From IMG/VR virus record IMGVR_UViG_3300040960_002782, positions 1 through 34,664 of that record: DNA of 34,664 bases; one strand, written 5' to 3'. The translations under genes and the position numbers were made by a program. Positions 17,364 through 30,764 of this stretch are shown here, piece after piece (positions within the stretch are counted from its first letter, which is position 1; every line of letters starts with the position of its first letter). The notes beneath the pieces are model-generated. The model was not told the DNA's origin, did not search any database, and saw nothing but the letters and a program-made list of their open reading frames with translations. The stretch is from a virus.

Positions 17364-17539
17364 TTACATACTCACATACTCAAAAGTTTGTTATTTACAT
17401 CTCGATTTACGCAAACAATACGCCTTTGAATGACTGCTTTCAGCCACTTCAATTCCTAGAAATTCGGATTTTGGCTAAATCCGAATTCATCCGAATTTCA
17501 CTTAGCCATTTGAGAGTTTTCGGGGCGTATGATGCAGCT
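17364..17539. promoter_or_regulatory. Divergent late promoter region
   Basis: This 176-bp gap holds no gene and separates the minus-strand scaffold operon from the plus-strand terminase operon. In P2 the same gap carries two promoters facing away from each other that are switched on by Ogr. A strong dyad is listed separately. No convincing sigma70 -35 box is visible on either side, which suits activator-dependent promoters. Confidence 0.6.
17461..17497. promoter_or_regulatory. Perfect 11-bp dyad with a third half-site, candidate late-activator operator
   Basis: AATTCGGATTT (17461-17471) and AAATCCGAATT (17477-17487) are exact reverse complements across 5 bp. A third copy of the half-site, ATCCGAATT, follows at 17489-17497, 11 bp from the matching part of the second. 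It lies 43-79 bp before the terminase start. The sequence is not the P2 Ogr box TGTTGT-N12-ACAACA, so the bound protein may be the local Ogr with a different specificity, or another regulator. Confidence 0.5.
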
Positions 17540-19318
17540 ATGGCATATTCAGACGAAATAAAAGAGGCCGCGAAAAAGCTTTATTTACGCGGATTACCTC
17601 CAAAGGAAATAGCGGCGCAACTTAACCTAAATAGTGACCGCATCATTTATACCTGGGCGGAGAAATTCGGCTGGGCTTTGTTGTTGAACGAACTTTCTGT
17701 AGAGGAAATGATTAACCGCCGTTTGGCCGTGTTAATTGATAAGGACGAGAAAACCGATCAGCAGCTTAAAGAGATGGATAAACTCATAGACCATCACGTT
17801 AAGTTGCTAAAAGCGAATGCCGATGCAAAAGCCAAAGCTCAACGCATGCTCTCGCAAGGCAGCTCGAAGGCAAATGATTCTGAACCAGCCAACCAAAGCC
17901 GTGGTGGTAACAGCAATCGCAAAAAGAGCCGTAAGAAAAACAGCATTGAGCACTTAGCCGAAGAAGACTTTAAACGCTGGCATGAATCGCTGTTCGAATA
18001 TCAGCATGTCATGCGTAACAATATTAAGCAGCGTATTCGCAACATTCTTAAATCACGCCAAATCGGTGCGACTTACTATTTCAGTGGTGAAGCGTTAGAA
18101 GATGCAATTCTAACGGGCGATAACCAAATATTTCTTTCTGCTTCTCGCGCTCAAGCAGAAGTTTTCCGCAGCTACATTATTGCCATTGGTAAAGAGTTTT
18201 TAGACATCGAGTTAACCGGCAACCCGATCATTCTTTCTAACGGCGCAGAACTACGATTCCTATCAACTAACAGCAAAACAGCACAGAGTTACCACGGCCA
18301 TGTTTATGTCGATGAATATTTCTGGATACCTAAGTTTGACGAGCTGAACAAACTTGCTTCGGCAATGGCTACGCATAAGAAGTGGCGCAAAACTTACTTT
18401 TCCACCCCATCATCGAAGATGCACCAGGCTTACCCATTTTGGACAGGCGACCAGTGGCGCAAAGGCAAAGAGTCTCGTGCAAAGATTGAATTCCCTACCT
18501 TTGAAGAATATCGCGACGGCGGCCGACTCTGCGACGATAAACAGTGGCGTTATGTTGTCACCATTGAAGATGCCGCGAATGGTGGTTGTGACCTATTTGA
18601 CATTGACGAACTTCGAGAAGAATACAGCCAAGACGACTTCAACAACCTGTTTATGTGTGTGTTTGTTGATGGTTCGCTTTCTGTCTTCAAGTTTTCAGAC
18701 CTTGAAAAAGGCATGGTAGATGCCGCCCACTGGCAAGACTTCAAGCCAAACAACAAACGACCTTTTGCCCATCGAGAAGTTTGGTTGGGTTACGACCCAA
18801 GCCGAACCCGAGATAACGCCTGCTTGGTGGTTGTGGCTCCGCCTGTCGTCGCGGGTGAACGGTTCCGAGTACTAGAAAAGCACTATTGGAAAGGGCTCAA
18901 CTTCCAATATCACGTTTCGGAAATCGAAAAAGTCTTTAAGCGCTACAAGGTGACTTACATCGGAGTAGATACCACGGGCATTGGCGGTGGTGTTTGGGAT
19001 TTGATTTCGAAGAAATACCCGCGTGAGACTCACGCAATCCACTACAGCAACGAACAAAAAAACCGCCTAGTGATGAAGATGATCGACGTTGTAGAAGCCA
19101 ACCGACTTCAATTTGATGCCGAACACAAAGACATTGCTATGGCGTTTATGGCGATTAAGCGAGTACCAACGGCCAGTGGTAACGCCATGACATTCAAAGC
19201 AGAGCGCAGCCAAACCACAGGCCACGCCGATGCATTCTGGGCTATCTCTCACGCCGTCGCTAATGAGCCGTTAGACCACTCAACACCAACTAAATCAACT
19301 TGGGCAACCGCAGCATGA
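17540..19318 (+). CDS. P: Terminase large subunit, ATPase (gpP)
   Basis: 592 aa from the ATG at 17540; the frame stays open upstream to 17357, but the extra residues read like translated promoter. Residues 13-45 form a helix-turn-helix ([20 protein letters not shown]). A Walker A-like element, [10 protein letters not shown], is at about 171-181 and Walker B, VYVDEYFW, at about 255-262. The C-terminal nuclease part includes [16 protein letters not shown] with its Asp. It drives ATP-powered DNA packaging with gpM at the portal. The stop overlaps the portal start as ATGA. Confidence 0.93.
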
Positions 19319-20343
19319 CCGAGCAAACAGAAACTTTAGTCAAACAAGAAGAACAAACACCCGAGTCGGTCTATCACATCGACTCCACTCCCGAAGCCAT
19401 CGACTCTAATAGTTGGATGACTTCCTACTCAGATTTGTTTTACAACGATTCCGACAATTATTGGGAACCGCCAATTTCACGCGCTGGATTAGCCGACATA
19501 GCCAGAGCCAACGCATATCACGGCTCTTTGCTGATTGCTCGGGCCAACTATGTCGCAGGACGATTTCAACAAGGTGGTTCGACTCGCCGCAGACACATTC
19601 AAGCCTTTTGCCGCGATTACTTCACCTTTGGTGATGCCGCTTTCTTAAAAATCCGTGATGGCTTTAAACGTGTAGTACGTTTGCACCCGTTACCTGGCAT
19701 GTATTTACGTAGGCGCAAAAATGGCAACATTGTCATTTTAGAGCGGGACAACCAGCAACGAGAATACCGCAAAGAAGATGTGATCTTCTTGCCTCAGTAC
19801 GACCCGCAGCAACAAGTTTATGGGTTACCCGATTACTTAGGCAGTATTCAGAGCAGCTTACTAAATAAAGATGCCACTCTATTTCGTCGCCGTTACTACA
19901 AGAACGGGGCTCATATGGGGTTCATTTTCTACGCTTCTGACCCGAACCTAAGTGAAGAAGACGAAAAGAAGATGAAGGAAACCATTGCCAGCTCCAAAGG
20001 CGTAGGTAATTTCCGCAGCATGTTTGTGAACATTCCAAACGGCAAAGAGAAAGGGATTCAGCTAATCCCCGTGGGCGACATTGCCACTAAGGACGAATTT
20101 GAGCGAATTAAGAATATTACCGCCCAAGATATTCTAGTGGGCCATCGCTTCCCAGTAGGTAAAGCAGGGATCATCCCTCAAGGTACCACCAGTTTAGGCG
20201 ACCCGATTAAGATTGGCAGTGAATATGCCAAAGATGAAATCATTCCAGTTTGTGAACTGATTATGGATGAAGTGAACAGTGACCCAGAGATCCCCAAACG
20301 GCTCCATTTAAAGTTTGATACCGATACGGGAACAACTGCATAA
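19315..20343 (+). CDS. Q: Portal protein (gpQ)
   Basis: 342 aa from ATG 19315; a TTG five codons upstream is less likely. Recognisable gpQ/PBSX-portal features are [35 protein letters not shown], the [21 protein letters not shown] core, [22 protein letters not shown] and the C-terminal [20 protein letters not shown]. It forms the dodecameric ring at the packaging vertex. The gene ends 2 bp before a LexA-type box. Confidence 0.93.
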
Positions 20344-20363
20344 AACTGTACATAAATACAGTT
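20344..20363 (+). promoter_or_regulatory. LexA (SOS) box upstream of ogr
   Basis: CTGTACATAAATACAG at 20346-20361 is CTG-N10-CAG with an A/T-rich centre, the SOS box form. It ends 49 bp before the ogr start codon. LexA there would block transcription reading into ogr until DNA damage. Confidence 0.65.
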
Positions 20364-20376
20364 TATGACTTAATAT

Positions 20377-20395
20377 TGAACTGTCAGTCAGTTCA
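20377..20395. promoter_or_regulatory. Second dyad between the LexA box and ogr
   Basis: TGAACTG (20377-20383) and CAGTTCA (20389-20395) are exact reverse complements around 5 bp. It starts 16 bp after the SOS box and ends 14 bp before the ogr ATG. TAATAT at 20371-20376 could be the -10 element, which would put the dyad at the transcription start, where a repressor would act. The binding protein is unknown. Confidence 0.45.
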
Positions 20396-20409
20396 GCTAG
20401 GTCATTGTT

Positions 20410-20661
20410 ATGAGAGTGTTTTGCCCAGAATGCGGTGAAAAAAGCCGCATCCAGAAATCAAACAGAATAAGTGCTAAGTACGCAGATTTATATTGCTCTT
20501 GCAGTGACCCTGAATGTGGTCACTCATTTGTGATGAACTTGTCTTTTAGTCATTCTCTTAGCCCTAGTGCTAAAACCACTTCACAGTTAGCCTTTAATAT
20601 GATCAATGCTTTAGCACCAGAACATAGAGAAGAATTAAAGCAGCAGCTTTCTATTCTATAA
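20410..20661 (+). CDS. ogr: Ogr/Delta late gene activator
   Basis: 83 aa with Ogr zinc-finger spacing C5-x2-C8-x22-C31-x4-C36, as in P2 Ogr and P4 Delta. After the finger comes HSFVMNLSFSHSLSPS, matching the conserved aromatic and hydroxyl residues of the family. Ogr proteins contact the alpha subunit of RNA polymerase and activate late promoters. In P2 ogr sits among late tail genes; here it stands behind its own LexA box beside the portal gene. Its last 6 bp overlap the end of the convergent 72-aa gene. Confidence 0.9.
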   Translation: MRVFCPECGEKSRIQKSNRISAKYADLYCSCSDPECGHSFVMNLSFSHSLSPSAKTTSQLAFNMINALAPEHREELKQQLSIL

Positions 20662-20874
20662 TTTAAAGTTAGGACTATCCGCTTCATCAGCCATCCCAAT
20701 AATAGACTGGATGGCTTTTATTTTTTCATCATCCAAAAGATGAGTAAACTTGGGCAATATACCCTCAAGTAACATTCTCCCCGCCTCCTCTCTTCCCTCT
20801 CCTTCAGAACTGACGGCCACACCATCAATAATTACATCCAAAGCTGATTGGAATAGCTGCTTTTCTTTAGACAT
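20656..20874 (-). CDS. Small LexA-controlled protein, candidate antirepressor (Tum analogue)
   Basis: 72 aa from ATG 20874, with AAGGG 9 bp upstream. A longer reading to 20958 would put the LexA box inside the coding part, so the shorter start is preferred. The protein is helical and acidic (LFQSALDVIIDGVAVSSEGEGREEAGRMLLEGILPKF). I recognise no family. In phage 186 the CI repressor resists RecA and a LexA-controlled antirepressor, Tum, inactivates it; this prophage has a 186-type CI and this SOS-boxed small gene. The Tum role is inference from regulation alone, and there is no sequence likeness that I can see. Confidence 0.7.
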   Translation of the reverse strand: MSKEKQLFQSALDVIIDGVAVSSEGEGREEAGRMLLEGILPKFTHLLDDEKIKAIQSIIGMADEADSPNFKL

Positions 20875-20905
20875 ATCAATACCCTTACCAGTGACACTGA
20901 AAATA

Positions 20906-20925
20906 TACTGTATATCCATACAGGT
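20906..20925 (-). promoter_or_regulatory. LexA (SOS) box upstream of the 72-aa gene
   Basis: On the minus strand CTGTATGGATATACAG (20908-20923) is CTG-N10-CAG, flanked by A/T, very near the LexA consensus. TATATT right after it can serve as a -10 element. It lies 32 bp before the start codon at 20874. Confidence 0.75.
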
Positions 20926-21472: not shown

Positions 21473-22150
21473 TCAGAAAGGACATCTTGCCCCGTACTTG
21501 GCTAGTACTTTAGCAATGTACTCCCACAACTCATTCAAATCGCGATATTCCAAATAAAAGTTACTGTCGACGAATTGCGAGCCACTTGATGAAAAGTTAG
21601 GTGCTGTATTGCCCTTGCCACCGATACCTAATTCAAAAGTCGCGGCAAACTTGCCACCTTTAGGTCTTACATTGAATTTGATGTGATATGTCCAATGGGT
21701 TTCAGATTGGCAACGCTGATAGTGAGCCGGTATCCATCCAGAGTCGTAAAAGTTTGGGTAGGTGTGGTTTGGGAGTTGATTGCCAGCGAACGGCGGAAGT
21801 GTTGGAAGGTTTGAACGAAGTTGGTTAGCCATTTGATTAAAGGCGTTGATGTAGGCTTCTTTGATTGCTGCAGCTTTCTTGCCTGTGAAACCCATCACCA
21901 AGAACATAAACCCGTCTTTGGTCATTTCCCAAAGCGGAAGTTTACGACCAGAGCCGTCTCGATAATCACTGAGCGTAAAATTGCGCTCAGTGAATTCTTT
22001 AGAGCAATCTAAAGCTTCTATCTTACGCAAAACATCTTTGTGCTGCTTACCAAAAGCCTGAGAAACTAGCTTAGATGTGGTGACAAGTTCACCTGAATGT
22101 TCAAAGACAAGATCAGAAGAACCTAAAGTTACAGTGATTTGATTGGTCAT
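21473..22150 (-). CDS. rha: Rha-type phage regulatory protein
   Basis: 225 aa. Start 22150 is set by AAGGAGGT 5 bp before the ATG. Residues 20-110 match the pRha domain: ELVTTSKLVSQAFGKQHKDVLRKIE, FTERNFTLSDYRDGSGRKLPLWEMTKDGFMFLVMGFTGKKAAAIKEAYINAFNQM. The last 100 residues are a separate aromatic- and glycine-rich domain I cannot name (GWIPAHYQRCQSETHWTYHIKFNVRPKGGKF). Rha proteins act as antirepressor-like regulators. The frame is open without a stop back to 22282, so an icd-like leader is fused in frame, and a C4-type RNA lies upstream. Confidence 0.8.
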   Translation of the reverse strand: MTNQITVTLGSSDLVFEHSGELVTTSKLVSQAFGKQHKDVLRKIEALDCSKEFTERNFTLSDYRDGSGRKLPLWEMTKDGFMFLVMGFTGKKAAAIKEAYINAFNQMANQLRSNLPTLPPFAGNQLPNHTYPNFYDSGWIPAHYQRCQSETHWTYHIKFNVRPKGGKFAATFELGIGGKGNTAPNFSSSGSQFVDSNFYLEYRDLNELWEYIAKVLAKYGARCPF

Positions 22151-22282
22151 GGTGACCTCCTTGGAATGATTTTGTAAATCACCACTCAAAGGTCTCAATC
22201 TATGGGTGGTGAACTGAACAAGGTTGAGACTACCGCTTCCAAGGATACGGCCAGCAAAAAGCTGCCTCGCCCAGCCCACCAT
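22151..22282 (-). CDS. icd/ash-like leader peptide fused in frame to rha
   Basis: From ATG 22282 the reading is MVGWARQLFAGRILG and onward, running straight into the Rha start without a stop. Leaders starting MVG(R/W)A before antirepressor or Rha genes are the icd/ash type of P1, P4 and many prophages, whose translation is the target of C4 antisense RNA. The nucleotide stretch 22222-22244 inside it is complementary in three blocks to the RNA at 22389-22475. Whether the 44-residue leader is released or extends Rha to 269 aa is unknown. Confidence 0.55.
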
Positions 22283-22704: not shown

Positions 22705-23484
22705 TTGCAAGCAGCACACGCAACTAAGACTAACGAATTACTTGACTCACTAATGGAAGCTATCGCTTCTGACACTGTGTTGAGTGAATTCGAGCAAGCT
22801 TACTACAAGAGAGAAGCAGAAAAGTTACCTGATGCGGCACATACGCATTTGGTCCTAACTCTGCTATATACCTCTTTGCGTCATCAAAAGCTTACTCTTG
22901 TCCATGCTCAAGAAGCATTGCGTCTATCAGAGCCGGGCGAACTCGCATCCTATGCCAATGCGATCTGGGCCATGAATTATGTGGGTGCTGCCAAGTCTCT
23001 ATACGACCTAATGTCTCAATGCGATTTTGAACTCTTCCCAGAGGTCATTATTGAAAACATGGTCGTTGCAAGTCGCTTTTACAATGATTATCAATTGACA
23101 GAGAAGTTACTTTCATACCTTTCTGAAAGTGATTACCTAGAGCCTGAGTCGCGCAACCTTGCGATAAAGCAACAAAATCTCGCAATTGCTCACGAGTACT
23201 TCGGCATTACAGCTCAAGAGCTTCTTGATGTGTCGATGATTGCATCAGAAGTTGTTGAAAAGCTAGATGTTGCTGTTCCTGTCGATTCAAAGGCCTACAT
23301 TCTCCCTGAATCACATCATTTAAGTGTTGTATTCGAAGTACAATGCTCTGTTGATGAAGCTTTCGACCTAAACTGGGAACTTAGCTCAGCACTAGTCGAG
23401 CGCGGGTTAGATGATTGTAATATTGTGGCTCGCTTTGACATTGAAAGCTCAAAGCCACAGCTTGTTGCAGGAGGTGCGGTCTAA
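22705..23484 (+). CDS. Helical-repeat protein, first gene of the HEPN accessory operon
   Basis: 259 aa, starting at TTG 22705 with AAGGGT close by; the next ATG (22753) would remove 16 residues. Residues 20-185 read as TPR-like helical pairs (THLVLTLLYTSLRHQKLTLVHAQEALRLSEPGEL, then SYANAIWAMNYVGAAKSLYDLM, then YNDYQLTEKLLSYLSES). The last 60 residues form a beta-rich part (HHLSVVFEVQCSVDEAFDLNWEL). It shares one base with the HEPN-like gene that follows (TAATG), so both are made together. Function unknown; sensor or antitoxin for the second protein is inference. Confidence 0.8.
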   Translation: MQAAHATKTNELLDSLMEAIASDTVLSEFEQAYYKREAEKLPDAAHTHLVLTLLYTSLRHQKLTLVHAQEALRLSEPGELASYANAIWAMNYVGAAKSLYDLMSQCDFELFPEVIIENMVVASRFYNDYQLTEKLLSYLSESDYLEPESRNLAIKQQNLAIAHEYFGITAQELLDVSMIASEVVEKLDVAVPVDSKAYILPESHHLSVVFEVQCSVDEAFDLNWELSSALVERGLDDCNIVARFDIESSKPQLVAGGAV

Positions 23485-23885
23485 TGCCAGTAACAACTGA
23501 CGAACTGATAGCTCATACGCATTCTCTACTAAACTCGGCTTCAAATGAGGCCGAGTACCGCAACGTTGTAAGTAAAGGCTATTATGGAATGTACCATTCG
23601 GTTCTATCCATACTTGATAACGCCCCACCAAGTGTTATTGGTCAAGGGGTACATGCATCGCTTATCTCATACTTACAGTCACGTGATGTGAGACACAGTG
23701 AACGCCACAATCATATGTCTCTCAAAGCGTTAGCTATGGTTCTAGCTCAATACAAAGACAAGCGTGTGGTTGCTGACTACAAACTTGAGGCTACTGTTAC
23801 TAAAGAACACGCTGAAGATATCGCTAACGCCGCAACTCGTCTTAAAGATAAATGTGACGGCCTAGTAACATCCCTAGACAAATAG
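23484..23885 (+). CDS. HEPN-like protein, second gene of the accessory operon
   Basis: 133 aa, all helical. The segment EAEYRNVVSKGYYGMYHSVLSIL resembles the first helices of HEPN families that read YR..VS.AYYA.FH. R70 and H75 in RHSERH give R-x4-H, the catalytic motif of HEPN RNases, and R70-x6-H77 is also possible. HEPN proteins act as RNA-cutting toxins or as their inactive partners in defence and toxin-antitoxin systems. The gene ends one base before the end of the convergent replication gene, with no terminator between. An effector role is inference. Confidence 0.7.
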   Translation: MPVTTDELIAHTHSLLNSASNEAEYRNVVSKGYYGMYHSVLSILDNAPPSVIGQGVHASLISYLQSRDVRHSERHNHMSLKALAMVLAQYKDKRVVADYKLEATVTKEHAEDIANAATRLKDKCDGLVTSLDK

Positions 23886-30164: not shown

Positions 30165-30764
30165 ATGAGTAGATTAAAAGCAAAAGTTCCTCCATTTGAG
30201 TACTTGAAGGGGCGGGAATTTACCGAAAAGCTAAAAGAAGTGACTGGTTGTAAGACTTATGAGCTTATGAGTGACTACTATGGCGTACCTAGTTCTACGT
30301 TTTCGACTTGGCATCACCATGATCGGACAGGATTTGAATTGATTGTGAGGGAGCACCTAAAATCTGGGGCTTCAGTTAGGTACCTTGCCCTTGGTGAAGG
30401 TAAACCATTCGATGACGAGCAATCCCCAGCCGACTCCATTTCAATTAACATCATTCTCAATGGGAAGCTTGAAGAAAGAGGCTCTCTTTCAATCGACTCA
30501 CTTACTCTTGATGGCTATGGGTTGAAAGCAAGCAAAACCATTATCGTCGAGCACGATGGTCAACGATGCTTTATTAACTCAGAAGAAACCCACGCCACTT
30601 CTGGTCGTTACCTGATAGAAATAGACGGGGCTCACTCTATAAACCAAGTTCAAAGATTACCTGGTAAGAAACTCGCAATAAGCTTTGGGAACTCGACTAT
30701 TGAAGCAACAGAAGAAGATATAAATGTGCTTGGTCGAGTAACAATGAGCATGACTAAAGAATAA
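30165..30764 (+). CDS. cI: CI repressor, 186/K139 type
   Basis: 199 aa. The N-terminal HTH fits the Phage_CI_repr family (FTEKLKEVTGCKTYELMSDYYGVPSSTFSTWHHHDRTGFELIVREHL). The C-terminal half is a beta-rich oligomerisation domain (LIEIDGAHSINQVQRLPGKKLAISFG) with no Ala-Gly cleavage site or Ser/Lys pair of S24 peptidases visible. Such repressors form large oligomers and are not cut by RecA, so induction needs an antirepressor. It starts the plus-strand lysogenic operon with lipoprotein and integrase. Confidence 0.85.
   Translation: MSRLKAKVPPFEYLKGREFTEKLKEVTGCKTYELMSDYYGVPSSTFSTWHHHDRTGFELIVREHLKSGASVRYLALGEGKPFDDEQSPADSISINIILNGKLEERGSLSIDSLTLDGYGLKASKTIIVEHDGQRCFINSEETHATSGRYLIEIDGAHSINQVQRLPGKKLAISFGNSTIEATEEDINVLGRVTMSMTKE

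Follow-up and report, generated by a model that had tools for sequence, protein, structure and literature searches.

In phage 186, the antirepressor Tum is placed under the control of LexA and inhibits the repressor CI (PMC7708051), and in PSP3 antirepressor activity has been assigned to the upstream gene, TumA (personal communication cited in PMC3121763). Further small SOS-controlled inactivators of non-cleaved repressors include GfoA/GftA (Gifsy), FsoA (Fels-1) and AntC (N15) (PMC3121763), which are described as acting on other repressors and are set beside the protein family analyzed here by description only. The Vibrio phage PV94, which carries both of the LexA-like boxes discussed below, was isolated by mitomycin C induction (PMC3986222). 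Comparative analysis of the present locus indicates that in a large P2-like group, mostly from Vibrio and marine relatives, LexA appears to control two genes at once, namely ogr, encoding the activator of the late virion and lysis genes, and a gene for a 72-aa protein, probably an antirepressor of CI.

The stretch of DNA analyzed (hereafter the window) is a 34,664-bp IMG/VR virus record that represents a P2-like prophage of the K139 type (Vibrio), its closest named relatives being Vibrio cyclitrophicus prophages such as 10N.286.45.B12_PE001 (95% identity over the region). Domain and profile matches revealed a Cox-like protein, a CII-like protein, a GpA-type replication protein and an integrase. 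The CI repressor (30165-30764, plus strand) combines PF07022 with PF16452, the C-terminal domain of the 186 type, and no S24 peptidase (PF00717) is encoded in the whole record. The portal gene (19300-20343, plus strand; identified by BLAST to annotated portal genes) is located immediately 5' of ogr on the same strand. The ogr gene itself (20410-20661, plus strand) encodes an Ogr/Delta-type zinc-finger late activator of 83 aa (PF04606, E 1.8e-17, 63.4 bits against a curated cut-off of 26.3; phrog_603, E 3.7e-31), the counterpart of K139 orf13 and of 186 B. Convergent to it and overlapping it by 6 bp, as had already been noticed from the sequence, lies the gene for the 72-aa protein (20656-20874, minus strand). 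Two genes at 22705-23885, with no function assigned, occupy a variable slot beside the replication gene; in the relative 10N.286.54.F9_PE001, the genes of this slot are labelled PD-T4-9 defence.

The sequence-only reading had reported a CTG-N10-CAG box just ahead of each of the two start codons. Quoted in this form, the motif is uninformative: it has 9 matches in the window against a chance mean of 9.1, so that only the form CTGT-N8-ACAG carries information. The exact CTGT-N8-ACAG palindrome occurs only twice in the 34.7-kb window, at 20346-20361 (CTGTACATAAATACAG) and at 20908-20923 (CTGTATATCCATACAG), which are the very positions reported. On a matrix of 17 E. coli LexA sites, the box of ogr (20344-20363, plus strand, AACTGTACATAAATACAGTT, with its core at 20346-20361) scores 21.4 bits and that of the 72-aa gene (20906-20925, minus strand, core at 20908-20923) 21.7 bits, well within the 13.3-25.1 bits obtained for the E. 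coli sites on the same matrix. The third-best place in the window reaches 11.8 bits, and about 0.03 sites of at least 17 bits are expected per window by chance. Both boxes thereby show the gammaproteobacterial LexA operator form, a CTGT-N8-ACAG palindrome with a TA-rich centre and a score within the range of known sites, and this motif is valid for Vibrionaceae (PMC3323433). The distance from the end of the box to the ATG is 48 bp for ogr and 33 bp for the 72-aa gene.

For the ogr promoter, a putative -10 element (TAATAT; 20371-20376, plus strand) was read from the sequence 7 bp past the box, and in relatives (e.g., L143) TATAAT is found directly 3' of it; the box would cover the -35 region of this putative promoter. 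Between the -10 element and the ogr ATG lies an GTCAGTCAGTT element (20383-20393, plus strand), conserved in most relatives. With a threshold of at least 13 bits per site, the ogr box was detected in 75 of 113 distinct ogr upstream regions, 38-55 bp and nearly always 44-50 bp before the ATG, against a rate of 0.2% under a first-order Markov null and a single passing window among 2784 control windows from the same loci. K139, PV94, 1.202, ZF14, SMHB1 and Aeromonas phiO18P are among the phages that possess it. The exact pattern of box plus ogr was retrieved from 17 of 330 Vibrionaceae genomes, and a reversed-pattern control retrieved nothing; a separate scan of contigs with one single pattern yielded only 7 loci. 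Sorted by the type of CI, the box is present in 46 of 67 phages with a 186-type repressor and in 10 of 12 with an S24 repressor, and its retention in the latter, which are devoid of the antirepressor gene (see below), argues that it is independent of the antirepressor. Judged by these comparisons, the LexA box of ogr is real, in agreement with the SOS control proposed earlier for this gene.

The most serious alternative, although an unlikely one, is that the box of the 72-aa gene is the sole LexA site and that the palindrome ahead of ogr is a LexA-like operator of another regulator, either a phage protein or Ogr. Consistent with it, the ogr boxes have a lower median score than the antirepressor boxes (18.5 against 23.7 bits), and their centre is A-rich, asymmetric and more conserved, beyond what LexA alone requires, so that this box may also serve a second purpose; moreover, one clade has a degenerate ogr box with the left half kept and the right half lost. 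However, the two half sites hardly vary (1.9-2.0 bits) among 49 distinct ogr boxes, and the scores fall within the range of the E. coli sites. The P2-type Ogr site TGT-N12-ACA is absent near ogr, and self-regulation of Ogr through such a site was dropped for that reason. The one palindrome shared with the late promoter region, ATTCGGAT-N9-ATCCGAAT (17462-17486), is a candidate Ogr operator within the divergent terminase/scaffold promoters, but it is unrelated in sequence to the LexA box of ogr; it occurs as a single copy in the window (chance about 0.1), with a comparable inverted repeat in K139. As a separate observation, the Ogr proteins of 1.202 and ZF14 are about 150 aa long and consist of two tandem Ogr/Delta-like stretches (L238:2794-3246 and L242:2806-3246).

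The convergent gene had been regarded as coding for an unknown 72-aa protein. It is not an orphan, being a member of PHROG 5581 (phrog_5581, E 3.9e-30) and a homologue of K139 orf12, although the description stands insofar as PHROG 5581 has no function annotated. The open reading frame from the first ATG would comprise 100 aa and include the box; the 72-aa start was preferred because it is conserved among the homologues. The predicted structure is a three-helix bundle (helices at residues 3-21, 28-46 and 49-64) with a mean pLDDT of 87. No Pfam match, including DinI (PF06183), was obtained for the protein or its family, and a PDB sequence search with the protein returned no match; a structure search of the model against PDB and BFVD gave no match below E 1, a result that is uninformative for a three-helix bundle. 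In relatives, the box of this family scores 20-27 bits and is retained even where genes are inserted between the 72-aa gene and ogr.

Distribution of the family was compared with the type of CI in two sets of phage records. Within the first (50 records, fetched through ogr), 47 possess PF16452 above or near the cut-off and lack S24, whereas three carry Peptidase S24, and the 72-aa profile matches exactly the 47 records of the 186 type. The second set (42 records from another ogr clade) contributed nine S24-type and 20 further 186-type records. The family was recovered in 16 of these 20, and the other four (G051, G064, G084 and G085) have the second LexA box before a mini relative of 42-53 aa, which resembles the first two helices of the 72-aa protein and was found in none of the S24 records. 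In the pooled 79 records, the LexA-boxed family, mini relatives included, accompanies all 67 repressors of the 186 type and none of the 12 self-cleaving S24 repressors, some of the S24 records being partial, with the CI-to-ogr stretch or the ogr neighbourhood still covered. A tree of ogr DNA places at least five changes of CI type on well-supported branches (six on the best tree), and presence of the 72-aa gene follows the CI type at every change; the sign test on five independent pairs gave p 0.0625, the lowest value reachable with five pairs. A portal tree was set aside, as this gene is mosaic and many of the records lack it. These changes of repressor constitute a natural experiment, in which phages acquiring a self-cleaving repressor would drop the antirepressor.

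The divergence of the protein points in the same direction. Among 47 thinned records, distances of the 72-aa protein correlate with those of the CI C-terminal domain (partial r 0.33, exceeded in 0 of 1000 permutations) when the CI N-terminus, Ogr and portal are held fixed, against a partial value of -0.12 for the CI N-terminus. Ogr distances also correlate with the CI C-terminus (0.23), so the co-variation may partly reflect general relatedness and is taken as support and not as proof. Both the distribution and the tracking of the C-terminal domain favour the earlier suggestion that CI is removed through this protein, which is probably an SOS-controlled antirepressor of CI.

Two other roles for the gene were weighed against this antirepressor function. 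It is improbable, somewhat more so than a different operator at ogr, that the 72-aa protein is a LexA-controlled modulator of the SOS response, DinI-like and directed at RecA or LexA, or that it acts on Ogr and not on CI. A DinI-like half does form part of Tum in phage 186, and LexA controls small genes of other kinds as well; nevertheless, the 72-aa protein lacks a DinI or other Pfam match, it co-varies with the CI C-terminus, and its gene is missing exactly where CI is self-cleaving, while ogr and its box stay. Slightly less probable again is module exchange, whereby the immunity cassette would be swapped as a block together with a passenger gene that does not act on CI. The immunity regions of P2-like phages do swap as modules, but the 72-aa gene adjoins ogr, about 9 kb from CI and with the replication gene in between; ogr does not change along with it, and several records have extra genes between ogr and the 72-aa gene with the LexA box kept. 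Lastly, it is very improbable that the SOS antirepressor of the prophage is the Rha-like regulator gene (21473-22282), which has Rha/antirepressor family matches but is without a nearby LexA box and is not annotated at the matching place in K139 or PV94.

Two side observations concern other genes behind LexA boxes. Next to an S24-type CI, a separate S24-like protein with no obvious DNA-binding part was encountered (L191:702-1190), its gene lying behind two LexA boxes at 1270 and 1330 (21.0 and 21.4 bits); it resembles the separate gp4 of Pseudoalteromonas phages ACA1/ACA2 (PMC10612066). In four relatives, G051, G063, G092 and G090, the integrase start is directly preceded by a strong LexA box of 22.7-25.0 bits (L228:1209, L223:11816, L226:1079 and L232:18292), which suggests that the integrase, too, may be under SOS control in these phages.

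We consider it likely that ogr and the 72-aa gene form a two-gene SOS module. In the circuit proposed, host LexA would sit on both boxes and repress both genes; upon DNA damage and cleavage of LexA, the 72-aa protein and Ogr would be made together. The former would bind CI, most likely via its C-terminal domain, and the non-cleavable repressor of the 186 type would let go, so that the early genes start. Ogr, made from its own promoter, would be available to the late operons irrespective of CI. Since terminase and portal lie ahead of ogr in the same orientation, late transcripts reading through from them could sustain ogr expression and would lock the state in through a positive loop. LexA holding ogr down in an undamaged infected cell implies that late expression may there depend on copy number, incomplete repression or readthrough. 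Binding of LexA to the boxes, contact between the 72-aa protein and CI, and priming of the late genes are the predicted steps of this scheme. The sequence-only reading had already proposed that one SOS signal would both remove CI and prime the late operons, and the comparative tests of both halves, either of which could have failed, support that proposal at the level of sequence.

Such a module would link DNA damage to the late genes by a second pathway that bypasses CI, in a phage group known from Vibrio, Aeromonas, Salinivibrio and others. The prediction that follows is a rise of late transcripts upon SOS induction even under immunity that cannot be removed. A testable function is also offered for PHROG 5581, a family present in K139 as well. 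More tentatively, and with less than even confidence, access to late transcription in this clade may be guarded by LexA and not by the phage repressor. In that case SOS induction would turn on the late and lysis genes even in lysogens with a CI that resists inactivation, and in infected cells free of damage host LexA would restrain ogr, with lysogeny favoured until this restraint is overcome by copy number or damage. What would be new is the control of Ogr by LexA within P2-like regulation, the antirepressor being a new member or an analogue of a known type. The earlier remark that direct SOS control of an Ogr-family gene seemed undescribed agrees with the literature searched, which yielded no account of LexA acting on an Ogr gene, although this is weak evidence, as most subscription journals fell outside the search.

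Among described phages, K139/Kappa, PV94 and other Vibrio Peduoviridae have the same gene order and convergent pair as this locus. In K139, orf13 (zinc finger) and orf12 both possess LexA-like boxes (17.4 and 23.7 bits, respectively), whereas its annotation places the promoters P12 and P13 over these boxes, marks no LexA site and gives orf12 no function. P2 likewise has an Ogr zinc-finger late activator with its own promoter, but differs in having no LexA-like site above 11 bits anywhere in its genome; a LexA-type site had been sought as a candidate in HP1 and P2, with none above 12 bits. A LexA-boxed gene at the boundary of the replication and portal genes is, judged by boxes and synteny, common to 186, PSP3, ENT90, YenM324 and the window. 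Stand-alone TumA-like genes behind strong LexA boxes are found in PSP3, ENT90, YenM324 and Fels-2, and in YenM324 this gene faces ogr as in the window; Tum is split into TumA and TumB in PSP3 and Fels-2. The DinI-like domain, which forms the C-terminal half of Tum in 186, is separate in PSP3, not required in TumA and absent from the 72-aa protein and its family. The N-terminal, antirepressor half of Tum and the 72-aa family give an in-register but weak profile match (hhalign E 0.005, probability 7%; 0.06 with a narrower profile), and likeness to Tum in function is thus a stronger claim than membership of the Tum family. By analogy, the 72-aa protein is predicted to be an antirepressor working like the stand-alone TumA of PSP3. 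Like the window, phage 186 has a CI without peptidase, a small gene that follows the replication gene at the portal end, and an Ogr/B homologue; in 186 the small gene encodes an antirepressor under LexA and the homologue drives the late genes, and the same roles are predicted for the window. Unlike ogr of the window with its LexA box, B of phage 186 lacks any LexA-like box; the annotation of its promoter, pB, gives two sites through which CI represses it. Early and late control in 186 are both under CI, with LexA acting only via Tum, whereas here the late activator appears to be wired directly to the SOS response of the host.
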